A DNA stretch of 64,000 bases, from the NCBI GenBank assembly GCA_024762655.1, contig JANTHB010000006.1, positions 1 to 64,000 on the forward strand, written 5' to 3'. This DNA is from Bacteroidales bacterium (GTDB taxonomy: Bacteria; Bacteroidota; Bacteroidia; Bacteroidales; VadinHA17). The first letter of the stretch is position 1; every line of letters begins with the position of its first letter. A model generated the notes under the pieces. The model did not search any database and had not been told where the DNA came from. It saw only the letters and a list, made by a program, of their open reading frames with translations. Shown here in pieces: positions 25,490-52,478 of this stretch. Made by a program: the position numbers and the translations under genes.

Positions 25490-25524
25490 TTAGTTGTATA
25501 ACTAAAATATTAGTTGTATATTTG
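25490..25524 (+). promoter_or_regulatory. BlaI-type operator overlapping the promoter
   Basis: The palindrome TTAGTTGTATAACTAA (25490-25505) and a second half-site TTAGTTGTATA (25510-25520) start exactly 20 bp apart. The -7 element TATATTTG (25517-25524) overlaps the second site and the -33 region (GTTG, 25493-25496) lies in the first. BlaI/MecI repressors bind such dyads as dimers, so autoregulation of the downstream blaI-M56 operon is expected. Confidence 0.75.
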
Positions 25525-25567: not shown

Positions 25568-25945
25568 ATGAAACTAACCCGGGCAGAAGAACAGATCATG
25601 CAGGTTTTATGGGAGCTGAAGGAGGCATTCGTGAAGGAGATCCTGGAGCAACTGGACGATCCCAGGCCTGCCTATAACACCGTTTCCACCATTGTGCGGA
25701 TCCTTGAGAAAAAAGGATTCGTCTCGCATCATGCCTATGGCAAATCGCACAAGTATTATCCGCTGGTCAGCAAAGAGGAATATACGCGTGCCCATATGAA
25801 GAATTTTGTAAAAAATTATTTCAGCAACTCTTTCGAGCAGATGGTCTCTTTCTTCGCCCGTGAAAAAGACATTGATCTGCGGGAGATGGAAGACATTATG
25901 AAGATCATGCAGGAAGAGATTAAAAAACAGAAAAAAGATGAATAG
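25568..25945 (+). CDS. blaI: BlaI/MecI/CopY-family transcriptional repressor
   Basis: 125 aa. The N-terminal winged helix (MKLTRAEEQIMQVLWELKEAFVKEI, then PAYNTVSTIVRILEKKGFVSHHAYGKSHKYYPLVS) is the standard BlaI DNA-binding domain; the C-terminal helices mediate dimerisation. The ORF track starts at 25514, but the added N-terminus (MYICVSKL..) overlaps the promoter -7 element, so the ATG at 25568 is chosen. It overlaps the M56 gene by 8 nt. In the classical system the M56 sensor inactivates BlaI; whether the signal here is a beta-lactam or envelope stress cannot be seen. Confidence 0.92.
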   Translation: MKLTRAEEQIMQVLWELKEAFVKEILEQLDDPRPAYNTVSTIVRILEKKGFVSHHAYGKSHKYYPLVSKEEYTRAHMKNFVKNYFSNSFEQMVSFFAREKDIDLREMEDIMKIMQEEIKKQKKDE

Positions 25946-28460
25946 CTTCAGCACTTTCTTATATCAGTCGGGCATCAGTATCGCGGTTTTTTACCTCTTT
26001 TACCGGGCCCTGTTACGCCGGGAGACCTGGTTTTCCCTCAATCGTATTCTGCTGGGGGCATCCCTGCTGCTGGCTATGCTAATCCCTTTTGTCCGGATTA
26101 CCCTTCATTCCGCCCCGGCGCCGGGCACAGTCTATTACGCGCTCGACCGCTACCTCCTGAACGGGGTAGTAGTACACCCGGACCACCTGGTCGAAAATAC
26201 CGGACTGCATATTACCGCCGGCAAAGCTTTGTTATCGGTTTATCTGCTGGGGGTCCTGTTTTTTACAGTCAAGTTCCTGACCCAGATCCTGCAGGTGTTG
26301 CACCTGATCAAAAAACACGGGATCCGGGAATTTGAAGGATACCGCATCGTTCCCATCACCGAAGAGATATCCCCTTTTTCCTTCTTCACCCTGATCTTCA
26401 TCAATACGGAAAACCTTGGGAAGCAGGAATTGAGGAGCATTCTCCTGCATGAGTGGGAACATGTTCGCCGCCTGCACACCCTGGATATCCTGGTGCTGGA
26501 GATCGTCTGCATCATCCAATGGTTCAATCCTTTCGTCTGGCTGTATAAATATTCCCTGCACGAGTTGCATGAATACGAGGCCGACCAGGCCGTCATCCGT
26601 CAGGGGGAAAACCGTCTCAATTATCAGAAACTGATTCTCAACCAGGCGTTCGGTCACCAGTTCTTCCAGGTGGCGCATAACCTCATTAACCGTTCTTTCA
26701 TCAAAAATCGTATACTCATGATCACCAAAAGAAAATCCGGAAGTATCACTTTGCTGAAATCGCTTTTCATCCTGCCGGTGGCTGCCCTTCTGGTGGCCAG
26801 TTTTTCCTTCACCCGCGAGCCGGAGAACATACAACAGGTGAAACAAATGCTCTCAGGCAATAAAAAATCTTCAACCCTCCTCCAGACCCCCCGGGAGAAA
26901 AAGGTGTATACCCTGAAAGAGGTGGATAAACAACCCAAATTCCAGGGGAAACCGATCCCGTATATTGTCTTATGGGTGAAGGATCAGATCAGGGACACCA
27001 TACCCTTTACCGACAAACCCCTCCGGATAAGTTTTAACGTTGCCCCGACCGGAAAGATTACCGATATAGATATCACTCCGGACCATACGCAGATCGATCC
27101 CAAATATCTTCAGGAGTTACGGAAGATCTTCCAATCCGCGCCCAAATGTTCGCCGGGGGAAAAGGACGGAAAAAAGGTGGCGGTCAGGTTCAGTGACGCT
27201 TTGATGAAATTTTTCAGTAGCCATAGAGAACCGGCGACGGAAGAAGAGTTGTTCTTCATCGTCGAGGAGATGCCTAAATTCCAGGGCGGGGATATCGGAA
27301 CTTTCAGGCAATGGGTGGCCGAACACCTCAGATACCCGAAAAAAGCTGCAGAGAAAAGGATCAGTGGAAAAGTGTATGTACAATTCGTCGTGGAGCCCGA
27401 TGGCAGTGTGGACCGGGTCAAGGTGGTACGTTCCGCTAATTACCAGTCAAACCGGAAAGTAATGAGCAGTAATGATTCTTTGTTAGACCGGGAGGCCGTG
27501 CGGGTCATCAAATCCAGTCCTGAATGGACCCCCGGAAAACAGAGAGGTAAAAATGTGGCCGTAGCCTATACCATCCCCATTACCTTCCTCCCCGGGGTGA
27601 ATATGTCTTCCCCACAAACGACTACGACACCGGCCTCCATCGGTGGAGAGGTATTCTTCATCGTTGAGCAGATGCCCAAATTCCAGGGCGGGGATATCTC
27701 CAGGTTTAGAGAATGGGTCGCGCAGCAGTTGAGATACCCTGATATAGCTGCCGAAGCAGGGGCCACCGGCCGGGTGTTCGTCAGCTTCATCGTCGAGACC
27801 GACGGATCGGTAAGCCATATACAAATAGCGAAAAGCCCCTATACCTTCCTGCGGGACCATCCGGACAAGAGCGCCGGCATCAACCTCCGGGCCTTTGCCG
27901 CCCTCGACGCCGAGGCAGTGCGCGTGGTCAGGTCCTCCCCCAAATGGGAACCCGGCGTACAACGGGGCCATCGCGTGCGGGTGAAAATGACAATCCCCAT
28001 CGTCTTCGTCCTTGATCATACCATACCGGCCCGGGACAGCCTGAAAATATCAGCATCAGGACAACCTCTCTATATCATAGACGGAAAGATTGCCAACGCG
28101 AATGAATTGGACAACCTGGATCATGACAAAGTAGCCCGTGTTATGGTCCAAAAAGACGTAAACGGGGACCTGGTTAAAAAATACGGTCCGGCCGCCAAAA
28201 ACGGGGTGATATTCATCAATACCAAAAAGCAGGTTACCGGACCGGTGCCCCAAAAACCCAAAGACCCCTTCGACAAATCTGCCGGATACCACTACCTGAT
28301 CAACGGGAAACCGGCCTCGTGGAAAGAAGCTGTAAAATATAAGGATAGAAAGGATCTTCAACTTATCTCCATTGCAAAAATATCCGATAAGGATGCGATA
28401 AAACTTTTTGGGGAGACAGCCCCGAACGGCATGGTGGTGATTAAGGCAAAAGAAAAGTAA
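25938..28460 (+). CDS. M56 (BlaR1-like) membrane metallopeptidase with TonB_C-like and receptor-plug-like repeats
   Basis: 840 aa. The N-terminal membrane part (1-290) has several helices and the M56 zinc motif HEWEH at 171-175, with ELHEYEAD at about 209-216 likely supplying the third ligand. A further helix (about 277-292) leads to the periplasm. Then come three TonB_C-like modules: a degenerate one (about 323-410), and two clear ones starting EMPKFQGGDIGTFRQWV (about 442) and QMPKFQGGDISRFREWV (about 574), each with a GxVxVxFxVxxDGSV core and EAVRVxxSSPxWxPG. Last are two modules resembling the TonB-receptor plug (PLYIIDGKI..VKKYGPAAKNGVIFINTK, about 707-765; LINGKPA..IKLFGETAPNGMVVIKAK, about 783-840). 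No penicillin-binding sensor domain is present. Confidence 0.88.
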   Translation: MNSFSTFLYQSGISIAVFYLFYRALLRRETWFSLNRILLGASLLLAMLIPFVRITLHSAPAPGTVYYALDRYLLNGVVVHPDHLVENTGLHITAGKALLSVYLLGVLFFTVKFLTQILQVLHLIKKHGIREFEGYRIVPITEEISPFSFFTLIFINTENLGKQELRSILLHEWEHVRRLHTLDILVLEIVCIIQWFNPFVWLYKYSLHELHEYEADQAVIRQGENRLNYQKLILNQAFGHQFFQVAHNLINRSFIKNRILMITKRKSGSITLLKSLFILPVAALLVASFSFTREPENIQQVKQMLSGNKKSSTLLQTPREKKVYTLKEVDKQPKFQGKPIPYIVLWVKDQIRDTIPFTDKPLRISFNVAPTGKITDIDITPDHTQIDPKYLQELRKIFQSAPKCSPGEKDGKKVAVRFSDALMKFFSSHREPATEEELFFIVEEMPKFQGGDIGTFRQWVAEHLRYPKKAAEKRISGKVYVQFVVEPDGSVDRVKVVRSANYQSNRKVMSSNDSLLDREAVRVIKSSPEWTPGKQRGKNVAVAYTIPITFLPGVNMSSPQTTTTPASIGGEVFFIVEQMPKFQGGDISRFREWVAQQLRYPDIAAEAGATGRVFVSFIVETDGSVSHIQIAKSPYTFLRDHPDKSAGINLRAFAALDAEAVRVVRSSPKWEPGVQRGHRVRVKMTIPIVFVLDHTIPARDSLKISASGQPLYIIDGKIANANELDNLDHDKVARVMVQKDVNGDLVKKYGPAAKNGVIFINTKKQVTGPVPQKPKDPFDKSAGYHYLINGKPASWKEAVKYKDRKDLQLISIAKISDKDAIKLFGETAPNGMVVIKAKEK

Positions 28461-28849
28461 ATTGTAAATCAGGGAGTGCTTCACTCAACGGGATGCCCTC
28501 CCTAACCTGCCATCGCAAAAAGACCCTCAGCGAAGAGAAATATTTTGAAGGAAGACTAAAAGATCGATAAAGCGATGAAGTGATAAAGAGATAAAGCGAT
28601 GAGTAGATCGCATAAAAAGACTCCATTGCAATCTTTTCGAGCCATATACCCTTTGACTTTTTGACTTTCAGACTCTTTGACTCTTTTAATCTTCGACTCT
28701 TTGACTTTTTGACACTTTGACTTTTTGATCCGCAAAAAACCCAGCCGTAGGTTTCCGGGGGAGGTAGCCGGTAACCGGACTCCTCCCCTTTTCTCCGGGC
28801 CCTTGGCATAATCTCTTTAGCATCACCGTATGATTCCAAAATCATCCCC
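28461..28849. other. Intergenic region with TPR-gene tail remnant and simple repeats
   Basis: Bases 28508-28570 read CHRKKTLSEEKYFEGRLKDR then stop, matching the last 21 codons (WHRIKAIREEMHFEGRLKDR, stop) of the downstream TPR gene; I count 12 mismatches in 63 nt. After both stops comes the same GATGAAGTGAT-type repeat. About 28645-28735 is a degenerate tandem of GACTTTTTGAC/GACTCTTTGAC units. No intact gene. Confidence 0.6.
28508..28570 (+). pseudogene. Remnant of the 3' end of a TPR-protein gene
   Basis: Twenty codons and a stop, homologous in frame to the end of the 439-aa TPR gene at 28850-30169. Upstream of 28508 I find no further similarity, so only the tail survives: either deletion of most of a tandem copy or a small segmental duplication. 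Confidence 0.55.
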
Positions 28850-30169
28850 ATGAAGAAAACACTTAAGAAAATCATCCTTCTGGCGTTTTCTGTGCCGGTC
28901 ATGTCCGTTTTTTCTCTCCACAGCCAGTCTTCCGCCGTTTTCAACGCTTTGATGAACGGCCGGTACCAGGATGCCATTCATCAGGCAGATCGTATTCTGG
29001 TCACAGACACCTCGATGGCCGGAGTATGGTTTCTGAAAGGGCAGGCTCACATGGGGCTGCTGCAGTTCGACCGTGCCGAGAAAGCCTTCCTTCAGGTCCT
29101 GCGGCAGGCCCCCGACACACTGCCTGTCCTGCTGGCGCTGGGACAGACCACTTACCTGCAAGGTCACGACGCCGACGCTATCCGCTGGTATGAAAAAGCG
29201 CTGCAAAAGGATCCTTCCGGCACCACCGCCCGCCTCGGACTGGCCCGCGCTTGCTACCGCCACAAACAATACGATCAAGCCATTCGACAGTATCGTATCC
29301 TGGTTAAGAAAGCATCGTGGAACTATGCTTACAACAAAGAACTGGGCCAGACTTATCTGGCTGTCGACTCGATAAAACAGGCCCAGTGGTACTTCCATGA
29401 TGCCGTCAACCTCAACAACGGAGATCTCTCCCTCGCCACCCAACTGGCCCGTCTCTACATAAAAACCAAAGACTACAAACTGGCGGCCGACATCGCCCTG
29501 CTGGGGTTACGCAGCGACACTGCCTGGATCCCCCTCCTCGAAACCCTTGGCTTTGCCCGTTACCGCAGCAAAGACTACAAAAAGGCAGTCGCAGCCTTTG
29601 AGCGTTGTCTGAGCCTGGCCGACAGCTCCCTCTTCGTCCTGAAGCACCTGGGATACATTTACCTCAGTCAGGATCGTCTGAAGGAAGCGGAACAGATGCT
29701 GCTGCAAGCCTGGAAGAAAAACAATACCCTTCCCGAAATCGCTTATTATCTGGGGCTCACGTACGAAAACATGAAGAAATACGATACGGCAACGGTGTGG
29801 CTGAAGAAAGCCATCGTGTTATACCATCCTCCTGCCAAACTGATGGCTGCCATTTACCGCGAACTGGCTTCCGATTACTATCATCTGAAAAACTGGATAA
29901 ATGCCTTTGACAATTACGGCAAAGCGCTCTCTCTCGATCCTGGCAATGAAGAGGTACTGTTCCGCATGGGAGAGATCTGTGATTATCATCTGAACGAAAA
30001 GGGAAAAGCCATGAAATACTACCAGCGTGTGGTGGACAGAAGCGACATCAATCCCGCCGTCTGGGATCCGGAGAAGACGACCACCATCCCCCTGGCCGTG
30101 GCCGCCTGGCACCGCATCAAAGCCATCCGCGAAGAGATGCATTTTGAGGGAAGACTAAAAGATCGATAA
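28850..30169 (+). CDS. Secreted tetratricopeptide-repeat protein
   Basis: 439 aa with an N-terminal signal-like segment (about 1-26, FSVPVMSVFSLHSQ) and then almost continuous TPR helices: AVFNALMNGRYQDAIHQADRIL, AGVWFLKGQAHMGLLQFDRAEKAFLQVL, PVLLALGQTTYLQGHDADAIRWYEKAL and at least six more, to about residue 420. TPRs are protein-binding superhelices and no enzymatic domain is present. It lies 389 nt behind the M56 sensor in the same direction, with a partial copy of its own 3' end between. It probably acts in the periplasm, partner unknown. It ends EMHFEGRLKDR just before a GATGAAGTGAT simple repeat. Confidence 0.82.
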   Translation: MKKTLKKIILLAFSVPVMSVFSLHSQSSAVFNALMNGRYQDAIHQADRILVTDTSMAGVWFLKGQAHMGLLQFDRAEKAFLQVLRQAPDTLPVLLALGQTTYLQGHDADAIRWYEKALQKDPSGTTARLGLARACYRHKQYDQAIRQYRILVKKASWNYAYNKELGQTYLAVDSIKQAQWYFHDAVNLNNGDLSLATQLARLYIKTKDYKLAADIALLGLRSDTAWIPLLETLGFARYRSKDYKKAVAAFERCLSLADSSLFVLKHLGYIYLSQDRLKEAEQMLLQAWKKNNTLPEIAYYLGLTYENMKKYDTATVWLKKAIVLYHPPAKLMAAIYRELASDYYHLKNWINAFDNYGKALSLDPGNEEVLFRMGEICDYHLNEKGKAMKYYQRVVDRSDINPAVWDPEKTTTIPLAVAAWHRIKAIREEMHFEGRLKDR

Positions 30170-49016: not shown

Positions 49017-52000
49017 TTAAAATGAAAATTTAATGTTTCCTCCGAGATATCTTACGGATGGATCGGAAAAGTCTTCATGTCCGCCATCGGGATCAGAATA
49101 CTTAAAGTCTTTGGCCCAGAATAATACATTTTGGCCTATAAAACTTATGGATGCACCCTTAACAAATCCCAGCTTCGAAACAATATCGTTTGGGAGCGTG
49201 TATGTAAGTGATACTTCACGTAATTTCAGAAACGTCCTGCTATAAATGTCGAAAGGTGTGGGTGAACCTCCCCAGGCACTACTTGCATGCAATCTTCGAA
49301 CAGCATCCTGATAATAAACGGCCACATTATTCGGAGCAAATTCACGATCATCGGTAAGAATGTTTCCGCTTACATCAAAGGTTGCACTTCCGGAGACAAC
49401 CATCACTCCATCTCCTATATAGTGCTTCGTACTTGGATCGGCTACGTCCTGTGCCCTGGTTTCCGTTACCGATTCGGGATGTACTCCGGCCTGCCACATA
49501 TAACTTTCTGTACGGGTACTCATTAACCCCCCTACAACACCATCGAAAGATAGAAACAAACTGAATCCTTTGTATCTTAAAGCGGTACTAAAGCCCCATT
49601 GCCAATCAGGAAGTCTGTAGCCATATAACGTATAAACAGGGCTCCTTAAAGGTAATCCGTTCTGCCAGATCATTTTCCCGGTTCCCGGTTGGTATTCAAA
49701 ATCTTTAATGGTCATATAATCAGTACGTTTTCCGACTTTAACCCAATCTTTGTCTACATTTCTCGTGTTTACCGAATCTATTTTGGTATAGATTTCTTTG
49801 TAAGTACCCCAGTTAAAAGTTAAATCCAGTTGTAAATCCTGTTTTTTAACGGGTGTCACCCTGACAACAGCATCCCAGCCTCTCCGGGCTCTTTCCTCAT
49901 TTGAGTTAAGGTAAATACTGCTTATACCTGAAGCAGGAGTCCTTGATGCTTTTACCAATTGATTATAAATGCGTTTATTAAAATAAGATACATCAACCGA
50001 TAACCGGTTTTTAAACAGGATACTCTGTAAGCCGAATTCACTTGTAGCATAATTATTCGGGCTATAAGAATTCAGATAAATAGTATGAGGAGCAGATGCT
50101 CCGTTATAATCAAGCCATGTACCCGGCTTTACAGAAAACACACTATTGATAGCGTAAGGAGCTGGAGCAGTTTTTGCTTGTGTCCACGAACTTCTGACTT
50201 TTAAAAGGTCCATCCAGTCCTTTGTAGATTCAGGCAATAATTCCGATAGCACAAAACTACCCGAAACCGACGGATATAAATATGACCAGTCTGATTTTGG
50301 TACAATAGGATTTGCAAGCATTGATACCCAGTCATTACGAAGGGTAGCATCTACATAAATAAAGCTTCCCCAGGAAAGGCCCAAACGGCCAAACATAGAA
50401 TTTGACTGTTCAGCATTGGTAGATTCCCCAACACGGGCCGGATTTACCGATGCTTTAAGAGAGTAAAAACCCGGGATGGAAATACCGTTGGTTGTTTCTC
50501 CATTTATATTATCGTCTCTGCGATAATAAATGGTCCCTCCTGCCAGATATTCCAATTCAAGGTTATCATTAACAAATTTCTTACTGCCTGTTAACAATAA
50601 ATCGCTGTTTATGCTAAATCCCTGTGTTCTTCCCGTAAGGTAAGCTCCTGTTTTTGTTCCGTTCCACGGATAAGGAATTCCCGGTACGGCAGTATTTCCT
50701 GTTGAGTTCCACGAGCCCTGTGAAACTCTTATCTGGCCACGATCAATATAAAAGTCAATCCCCGTACGTGCCGTAACTTTTAACCAGTCGGTTATTTCAT
50801 AATCTGCAGTTGCGTCTGCATTGTAGATGTCCCTTGAAACCTTATTTATTTTTTCATAGCGGTCAAAATAGGGGTTGTTTACATTTCCATTCGGATAAGT
50901 CCAGTTTTGCTTTTGATCTTTTATCAGCCAGTAATTATTCTTATAATCCAAAATATTATAATCGGCTGGTGAATAGATCAGCAAAGAATACATTACATCG
51001 TACGATGTATATCCGTTAGATCCCTTGTTAGGAGAAGCATTTTTGGTATACGAGGTATTTGTTGTCAGATGGAACTTATCAAGGTTAACATCTGCCCCTA
51101 ATGAATAGGTGTATTTATTTAACATTGCATTAGGATAAACTCCTTTTTGTTGTATCCAGTTTAATGAGCTTCGGACGGCAACATTATCTGATCTGAAACC
51201 AACATTAACATTATTGTTAGATACATAACCCGGATTTATGAAGTTTTTAAAGTTGTCTTTTCCAACAGGCAGGTATTCATAATCTCTGTAATCCTTCAGA
51301 AAAGGATCCCATTGGGTTCTTATTGTGCCATCCATTGCCGGTCCCCACGAATAGGTGCGGTTTATATCGTAGTTTCCGTTATACCCACGGCCATATACGG
51401 ATTGTTTTTCAGGAATTGCCAAGAATCCTGCAGTAAACATGGTATTGGATGTTAGATCAACGGATACACCCTTTTTACCTTCACTCCCGTTTTTAGTTGT
51501 TATAAGGATGGCACCGCGTTCTCCACGGAACCCATATAATGCAGAAGCCGTAGCCCCTTTTAATACCGATATTGATTCGATATCTTCTGCTGACAGGTCA
51601 CTTATTTTTTTATTAGCATAAGCAATCCCATCTATGACAATCAAAGGGTTTGTTTCTCCCCGAATTGTAATGGTCGGGTCAACGTCAAAATCAGTAGGGT
51701 TTTGAACCAGAACCCCTGCTACCTTACCGGTAAGGGATGTACTTACATTAACGCCAGGAACCTTTTGCACGCTTTCTCCGGAGACTTTTTGAATGGAATA
51801 ACCAAGCGCTTTCTCCGCTCTTTTTATCCCAAGAGCGGTTACAACCACTTCTTCAACACCAATGGAAGTCTGTTTCATTGCAACGTTAATAATGCGCTGG
51901 TTCTCAACCGCAACTTCCTGGCTTTTAAATCCCACAAAAGAAAAAACCAGCGTAGCTCCTGATGGGACGCTAAGTGAATATTTCCCGTTTGCATCCGTTA

Positions 52001-52478
52001 TGGTTCCCTGGGTGGTACCCTTGATAATAATATTCACCCCCGGTAGCGGGCTTCCTTTATCGTCGGTCACCGTACCGGTAATGACTTTCTGTTGCTGTAA
52101 CAATTTTTTATTATTAACAGCACCGGAGAACAGTGCAATCTGTTTCCCTACTACACGATAGGTAATCCCGGCTTCAGGTAATACCTGATCAAGGACATGC
52201 CAGATATCTTCTTTTTTGGCCATTACATTTACTTTTTTGGTTACATCCACCAACTGATCATTGTAAAAGAATTTAAATTCACTCTGATCCTGGATGGCCT
52301 GCAGGACATCTTCAATGGTCGCTTGTTCCATAGAGAGAGACAATTTTTTGTTTTGCGCATAGTTATTCACTGCAAAGACCTGCAAAACAGCTACAAAAAA
52401 CAGAAAAAGACTGATTTTCATAATTCTGAATATTTTTCTGAAAATATCATTTTTCAGATAAATTAAATTTTTCTTCAT
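49017..52478 (-). CDS. susC: SusC/RagA TonB-linked outer-membrane transporter with STN domain
   Basis: 1153 aa. Signal region (about 20-42); an N-terminal STN domain (LSLSMEQATIEDVLQAIQDQSEFKFFYND, about 48-118) that contacts the FecR anti-sigma; a carboxypeptidase-like domain (VITGTVTDDKGSPLPGVNIIIKGT, about 132-210) with the SusC signature; a plug (NPLIVIDGIAYANKKISDLSAEDIESISVLKGATASALYG, about 270-325); and a 22-strand barrel ending NIKFSF. The STN domain with the sigma/FecR genes upstream makes this a transenvelope-signalling transporter: substrate binding would activate its own expression. Visibly A+T-richer than the 7-42 kb genes. Confidence 0.97.
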   Translation of the reverse strand: MKKNLIYLKNDIFRKIFRIMKISLFLFFVAVLQVFAVNNYAQNKKLSLSMEQATIEDVLQAIQDQSEFKFFYNDQLVDVTKKVNVMAKKEDIWHVLDQVLPEAGITYRVVGKQIALFSGAVNNKKLLQQQKVITGTVTDDKGSPLPGVNIIIKGTTQGTITDANGKYSLSVPSGATLVFSFVGFKSQEVAVENQRIINVAMKQTSIGVEEVVVTALGIKRAEKALGYSIQKVSGESVQKVPGVNVSTSLTGKVAGVLVQNPTDFDVDPTITIRGETNPLIVIDGIAYANKKISDLSAEDIESISVLKGATASALYGFRGERGAILITTKNGSEGKKGVSVDLTSNTMFTAGFLAIPEKQSVYGRGYNGNYDINRTYSWGPAMDGTIRTQWDPFLKDYRDYEYLPVGKDNFKNFINPGYVSNNNVNVGFRSDNVAVRSSLNWIQQKGVYPNAMLNKYTYSLGADVNLDKFHLTTNTSYTKNASPNKGSNGYTSYDVMYSLLIYSPADYNILDYKNNYWLIKDQKQNWTYPNGNVNNPYFDRYEKINKVSRDIYNADATADYEITDWLKVTARTGIDFYIDRGQIRVSQGSWNSTGNTAVPGIPYPWNGTKTGAYLTGRTQGFSINSDLLLTGSKKFVNDNLELEYLAGGTIYYRRDDNINGETTNGISIPGFYSLKASVNPARVGESTNAEQSNSMFGRLGLSWGSFIYVDATLRNDWVSMLANPIVPKSDWSYLYPSVSGSFVLSELLPESTKDWMDLLKVRSSWTQAKTAPAPYAINSVFSVKPGTWLDYNGASAPHTIYLNSYSPNNYATSEFGLQSILFKNRLSVDVSYFNKRIYNQLVKASRTPASGISSIYLNSNEERARRGWDAVVRVTPVKKQDLQLDLTFNWGTYKEIYTKIDSVNTRNVDKDWVKVGKRTDYMTIKDFEYQPGTGKMIWQNGLPLRSPVYTLYGYRLPDWQWGFSTALRYKGFSLFLSFDGVVGGLMSTRTESYMWQAGVHPESVTETRAQDVADPSTKHYIGDGVMVVSGSATFDVSGNILTDDREFAPNNVAVYYQDAVRRLHASSAWGGSPTPFDIYSRTFLKLREVSLTYTLPNDIVSKLGFVKGASISFIGQNVLFWAKDFKYSDPDGGHEDFSDPSVRYLGGNIKFSF

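Follow-up and report, generated by a model that had tools for sequence, protein, structure and literature searches.

The window, the whole stretch of 64,000 nucleotides analysed from a Bacteroidales genome, carries a gene for a BlaI/MecI-type repressor, followed by a gene for a membrane M56 metalloprotease with a long periplasmic tail and by one for a TPR protein.

The blaI-M56 locus and its putative operator

The features of the locus, other than those of the tail, are:

25490-25524, forward strand: putative operator array for BlaI with TAGT/ACTA half-sites at 10-bp intervals, sequence TTAGTTGTATAACTAAAATATTAGTTGTATATTTG
25517-25524, forward strand: promoter -7-like element TATATTTG, overlapped by the last operator box
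25568-25945, forward strand: BlaI/MecI-type repressor, 125 aa (Penicillinase_R 1.3e-33; MecI of known structure 5.6e-12)
25938-28460, forward strand: M56-type sensor-protease, BlaR1-like, ORF of 840 aa
25938-26810, forward strand: residues 1-291, comprising the membrane part and the M56 zinc protease (Peptidase_M56 3e-12; BlaR1 fold match 1.6e-6)
26448-26462, forward strand: HEWEH, residues 171-175, the M56 zinc site
26571-26573, forward strand: E212, third zinc ligand
28850-30169, forward strand: TPR protein with a signal-peptide-like start (TPR families), probably part of the operon or a neighbour of the output

The 840-aa protein is an M56 (BlaR1-type) metalloprotease. Pfam assigns it Peptidase_M56 (3e-12) and TonB_C (6e-38), and all 48 relatives share H171, E172, H175 and E212, the residues of the zinc site and of catalysis. 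No penicillin-binding, transpeptidase or beta-lactamase family was found in it by Pfam at E<=10, and the NCBI model blaR1_generic gives 36 bits against a cut-off of 400. Since the penicillin sensor that defines a BlaR1 was tested for and is absent, we do not class the protein as a BlaR1; the blaI-M56 system is a variant of the BlaR1-like M56/BlaI kind. An earlier note, made from the sequence, had read the gene as a BlaR1-like M56 protein partnered by BlaI in which the penicillin-binding domain is replaced, and the Pfam results, the adjoining blaI and the BlaR1 fold match bear this out; the ORF, its coordinates, HEWEH and all the motifs quoted in that note lie where it placed them.

A full-length model (pLDDT 76) has a pTM of 0.46, at which we leave the placement of the domains relative to each other uninterpreted; its best fold match is BlaR1 (1.6e-6), TonB C-terminal domains come next, and TonB bound to FoxA is among the matches (TM 0.72). 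The autocleavage site of BlaR1, Ser283-Phe284 (S-F), aligns with N248-L249 in the window protein, in a column that is poorly aligned among the relatives.

The blaI gene overlaps the start of the M56 gene by 8 bases and encodes a Penicillinase_R winged helix with a dimer tail. In MecI the corresponding region, LNF, is cleaved at N101-F102; in 130 of 168 cases the second residue of the aligned BlaI segment is likewise F. Upstream lies a promoter-like element that fits the Bacteroidota -7 consensus, TAnnTTTG, within the operator array. Of 162 regions upstream of blaI, 86 contain the dyad ACTA-N6-TAGT and 54 contain TAGT-N6-ACTA, where shuffling of the bases leads one to expect 0.8 and 0.7; the counts are not independent, as the regions are related, but remain far in excess. 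The exact array TAGT-N6-ACTA-N6-TAGT is found only at two blaI-M56 operons in this genome; by this criterion, the predicted regulon would be the operon itself.

The second blaI-M56 operon, on contig 12 of the same genome (7270-9316; L105 1501-3016 and L107), has an even longer operator array, and its M56 tail consists of CarboxypepD_reg and TonB_C with no plug module. Low-complexity intergenic tracts of short degenerate repeats lie beside both operons (window 28630-28740, L105 1020-1180; GACTTTTTGACTCTTTGACT type and GTAGTCATTCGGT type). A third operator-like site of the genome, on contig 5 (63285), was rejected as a BlaI target: it stands upstream of a toxin-antitoxin pair like AbiEi/AbiEii (L104 1501-3016) and is probably the pair's own operator. 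The dyads that precede this pair, TAGTAGTATAACTAC and GTAGTATGACTAC, resemble the BlaI operator and are probably autoregulatory sites of the pair.

TonB and plug modules in the periplasmic tail

The tail is built of five modules, listed here with the SusC encoded in the same window:

26919-27194, forward strand: first, degenerate TonB_C-like module, residues 328-419 (iterated TonB_C profile; no Pfam match alone)
27252-27587, forward strand: TonB_C module 2, residues 439-550 (Pfam 7e-21 alone; 69-71% identity to the cell's own TonBs)
27651-28007, forward strand: TonB_C module 3, residues 572-690 (Pfam 4e-17 alone; 59-60% identity to the own TonBs)
28065-28229, forward strand: plug-like module 1, residues 710-764, corresponding to the C-terminal portion of the plug of a TonB receptor (sequence and fold)
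28293-28454, forward strand: plug-like module 2, residues 786-839, diverged (profile and predicted fold)
49017-52478: the window's SusC, with Pfam Plug at 225-318 and the custom plug module at about 278-330 (ORF numbering minus 5)

One degenerate and two clear TonB_C modules had been proposed, and this count stands. Searched alone, the degenerate module falls below Pfam detection; it is picked up by the iterated TonB_C profile, shows a TonB-like order of elements in the predicted model (at low confidence) and is 26-27% identical to the cell's own TonBs. The motif MPKFQGGD, with which the modules had been said to open, is real, but it is not special to the sensor: the cell's two free TonBs have EDMPTFQGKD and EDMPSFQGKG in its place, and it is how the ordinary TonB C-terminal unit begins in this organism.

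Two intact TonB_C domains this close to the cell's TonB raise the question of whether the protein is primarily a TonB, with the M56 part as an anchor and the TonB_C domains energising receptors. Similar fusions have reportedly been counted as TonB proteins by Chu, Peacock and Vogel in 2007. The ordinary TonBs of this genome, two in tandem, are proteins of 228 aa with one helix and a KPKPPEPP linker; the M56 protein lacks the single N-terminal helix and the linker and has several membrane helices and the M56 domain instead. The genome has two proper TonBs, and the conservation both of the protease residues and of the pairing with BlaI makes the protein, at the least, a regulator too. We consider a primary TonB function very improbable. 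A transmembrane Ser-His motif was dropped as a test of TonB function, as the own real TonBs also lack the His. The two tonB genes lie on contig 29 (locus L209 2375-3929) and are followed by a lipoprotein-like gene; they are in tandem in genomes of the same genus too.

TonB_C modules of M56 proteins cluster mostly with one another and not with the TonB of their own genome. We therefore rejected the idea that TonB was recently copied into the sensor, and the similarity is better described as retained.

The last two modules had been likened to the plug of SusC-type receptors. The SusC/RagA NCBIfam model matches residues 703-765 (2.7e-5) and RagA of known structure is matched by the plug-like part (6e-6); Pfam Plug has no match on the window M56 protein, whole or as tail pieces alone, and matches 13 of the 48 M56 relatives (best 4e-9). 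We also used a custom profile of 53 positions, made from 37 modules; these came from other M56 proteins, and the window protein was excluded. Among the 226 ORFs of the window, to which its E-values are scaled so that only large gaps are meaningful, it finds module 1 (7e-17), the SusC plug (1.4e-14) and module 2 (6e-9); there is no fourth match, the next ORF being at 0.13, and the best of the reversed ORFs used as a control is at 2.6. Removal of L096 (an M56-type ORF described below) and of the rows from the same genus brings module 2 to 1.4e-6; a profile restricted to other families gives it 0.05. Judged by these profile scores, with and without close relatives, and by the reversed controls, the relationship of module 1 to receptor plugs is certain at the level of sequence, and module 2 reads as a diverged copy, the weaker of the two.

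The homology to the SusC/RagA plug spans about 53 residues. Comparison of the module in SusC (about 278-330) with the Pfam Plug match there (225-318) places the module in the C-terminal part of the plug only. No barrel family was found by Pfam and no beta-barrel in the full-length model; the protein ends with plug-like module 2. A separate AlphaFold2 model of residues 695-840, from an alignment of 30 rows, has a mean pLDDT of 81 (above 90 in module 1), and the order of strands and helices is identical in both modules. Its top 16 fold matches in the PDB are all TonB-dependent transporters (Cir, SusC BT2261-2264, RagA, BtuB, TbpA), with probabilities mostly of 0.9-1.0 and E-values that are weak, 0.05 and above, owing to the short query.

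The earlier note had asked for profile searches and for structure prediction of the repeats alone, and would have given up the plug reading had residues 705-840 proved unrelated to plugs. TonB_C was found at 6e-38, the plug through NCBIfam and the custom profile with Pfam Plug silent, and the predicted fold is of plug type; profiles and fold alike show the relation, and the SusC plug is of the same pattern.

Distribution of the modules and of the neighbouring genes

We surveyed 180 distinct M56 ORFs, a non-random set to which the family, the phylum and 80 named loci contributed. BlaI is encoded on the same strand within 400 bp of 163 of them. TonB_C is present in 107 of the 180 and plug-like modules in 49, and there are about 29 arrangements of the tail, including some with CarboxypepD_reg or M23 and some tails without any module. 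As in SusC, CarboxypepD_reg often stands directly before the plug-like module. An M56 tree built with FastTree requires 16 changes in plug presence, at least 10 on its well-supported branches; plug modules have been gained or lost repeatedly. Carriers of plug modules were found in this survey, of the kind that the earlier note had suggested, but the stack that it described is not unique: it is one variant in a large, freely shuffled family. M56 proteins with TonB and plug modules are a widespread theme in Bacteroidota and apparently an undescribed one; in the open-access literature we found no description of M56-plug proteins, of the shared operator or of the TPR linkage. Named carriers are Algibacter, Winogradskyella, Flavobacterium akiainvivens, Mangrovimonas and Prolixibacter, and since cultured species are among them (Algibacter, Winogradskyella, F. 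akiainvivens, Prolixibacter), the system is open to experiment. Bacteroidota-type M56/BlaI loci also occur in two genomes labelled as belonging to other phyla, a Sulfurovum MAG (L186) and an Aminicenantes MAG (L136), through transfer or binning error.

M23 (LytM-like) peptidase modules are found in the M56-type tails of L096 (1-2241; G004 contig 39), an ORF cut at the contig end whose tail further holds TonB_C and plug-like modules, three of each, and of L091 (1841-4276). In some relatives such modules, of a wall hydrolase type, take the place of the others or are added to them (Pfam M23 2e-34; also L096 and L091). Together with the BlaR1 ancestry, they allow the tail to be seen as a sensor of peptidoglycan or the cell wall, whose TonB_C modules (M23 in relatives) would bind the wall and report wall stress by direct contact, much as BlaR1 does. 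TonB has been proposed to bind peptidoglycan. Few of the tails have M23, however, with one case in the 180 whole M56 ORFs, and we know of no wall affinity of plug-like modules; a wall sensor seems to us improbable.

The genome of the window has about 17 plug matches in large ORFs. Two short secreted proteins of about 220-230 aa combine CarboxypepD_reg and a plug with no barrel (L199 994-1689, contig 11; L206 1501-2157, contig 91), and an alpha-2-macroglobulin-like ORF of 2014 aa has a CarboxypepD_reg-plug insert (L198, contig 3), so that barrel-less plugs are a wider theme here.

The genes checked downstream of M56 encode the TPR protein, a 6-bladed propeller and LuxC, and the operon has no beta-lactamase gene. 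In about 17 distinct loci from several families a TPR homologue is the gene directly after M56, and only one homologue within the loci is positioned otherwise. For the output, this order of genes is the most telling clue. The gap between the M56 and TPR genes is 389 bases and may carry a separate TPR promoter.

These observations also bear on the possibility that the same BlaI/M56 switch has a tail of generic periplasmic adaptors, for a small ligand or a dedicated partner such as the TPR protein, with no Ton role left. The free shuffling of the tails and those without any module would fit, as would the secreted TPR gene after M56; and since plug pieces and CarboxypepD_reg occur in other secreted proteins of the genome, the modules may be generic. 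The repeated choice of Ton-related domains (TonB_C, plug and CarboxypepD_reg, in the order of SusC) would then be a coincidence, however, and so would the 59-71% identity of the TonB_C modules to the cell's TonB. We regard this alternative as possible but somewhat unlikely. After the reading in which the tail makes Ton-related contacts, we rank generic adaptors next, then the wall sensor and then TonB function.

A candidate switch and its relation to known systems

We propose an autoregulated BlaI/M56 switch with Ton-related contacts as its stimulus, a joint statement whose chances we put just short of even. Taken by itself, the regulatory core is very probable; the stimulus, Ton-related protein contacts, is offered tentatively. 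BlaI dimers would bind the half-site array, phased at 10 bp, that covers the promoter, and would keep blaI, the M56 gene and probably the TPR gene repressed. Once something engages or displaces the periplasmic tail, the zinc protease facing the cytosol would be activated and would cut BlaI, probably near F95-F96, so that repression is lifted. By analogy with the way in which BlaR1/BlaI work in general (PMC7593790), the protease should be activated by a signal at the tail and then remove BlaI. The tail would be a chain of modules for protein contacts that were taken over from the Ton machinery (TonB_C and C-terminal plug pieces), and the likeliest stimulus would be altered periplasmic contacts of TonB, receptors or plug-type proteins; candidate triggers are the state of the Ton system or the envelope, the load on receptors and their mislocalisation.

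The proposal is supported by the invariant M56 residues, the pairing with BlaI, the conserved operator, the TonB_C and plug homologies and folds, the recurrent gain or loss of plug modules alongside TonB_C and CarboxypepD_reg, and the TPR gene order. Counting against it are the partial plug without a barrel, the presence of plug pieces and CarboxypepD_reg in other secreted proteins, the alignment of the BlaR1 S-F with N-L in a poorly aligned column, and the possible separate TPR promoter. BlaI cleavage, derepression and co-transcription of the TPR gene, and above all the nature of the signal, are steps that we infer; that the tail may report on the Ton system, as the earlier note had suggested, is plausible. 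A broader version we think unlikely: in it the large, diversified M56/BlaI family would be the Bacteroidota surveillance of the Ton apparatus, its TonB_C domains competing with free TonB for receptors and its plug modules acting as decoys for TonB or for receptor partners, and load or failure of outer-membrane import would control expression via proteolysis of a repressor.

Many SusC-type importers share one Ton machinery in Bacteroidota, and to our knowledge no dedicated sensor of the state of that machinery has been recognised; a repressor-cleaving M56 switch that senses through TonB and plug modules would be a direct candidate. Annotation as BlaR1-type in Bacteroidota genomes need not imply beta-lactam resistance.

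The system shares with BlaR1/MecR1 and BlaI/MecI the membrane M56 zinc protease, the periplasmic C-terminal tail, the adjoining BlaI-type repressor and operator dyads at the blaI promoter, but has no penicillin-binding sensor, carries a tail of TonB_C and plug-like modules, and lies in an operon without a beta-lactamase gene. Its class is that of the Bacteroidota fusions in which M56 is followed by one or more TonB C-terminal domains, reportedly described by Chu, Peacock and Vogel in 2007 as TonBs with a MecR1-like extension, tandem TonB_C domains included; the window protein differs in adding C-terminal plug-like modules. To the SusC/RagA transporters it is related through the 53 or so residues of the C-terminal part of the plug, and some M56 tails also copy CarboxypepD_reg, whereas barrel and N-terminal plug part are absent and the protein is anchored in the inner membrane. 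In TonB-dependent cell-surface signalling, FecR-type anti-sigma factors act with signalling receptors, and the state of transport is passed to transcription via regulated proteolysis. Should the M56 tail report on Ton receptors, the switch would be a functional analogue of this signalling; the families differ throughout, anti-sigma and sigma factors against M56 and BlaI, and the likeness that we draw is one of function, with no relation in sequence claimed.
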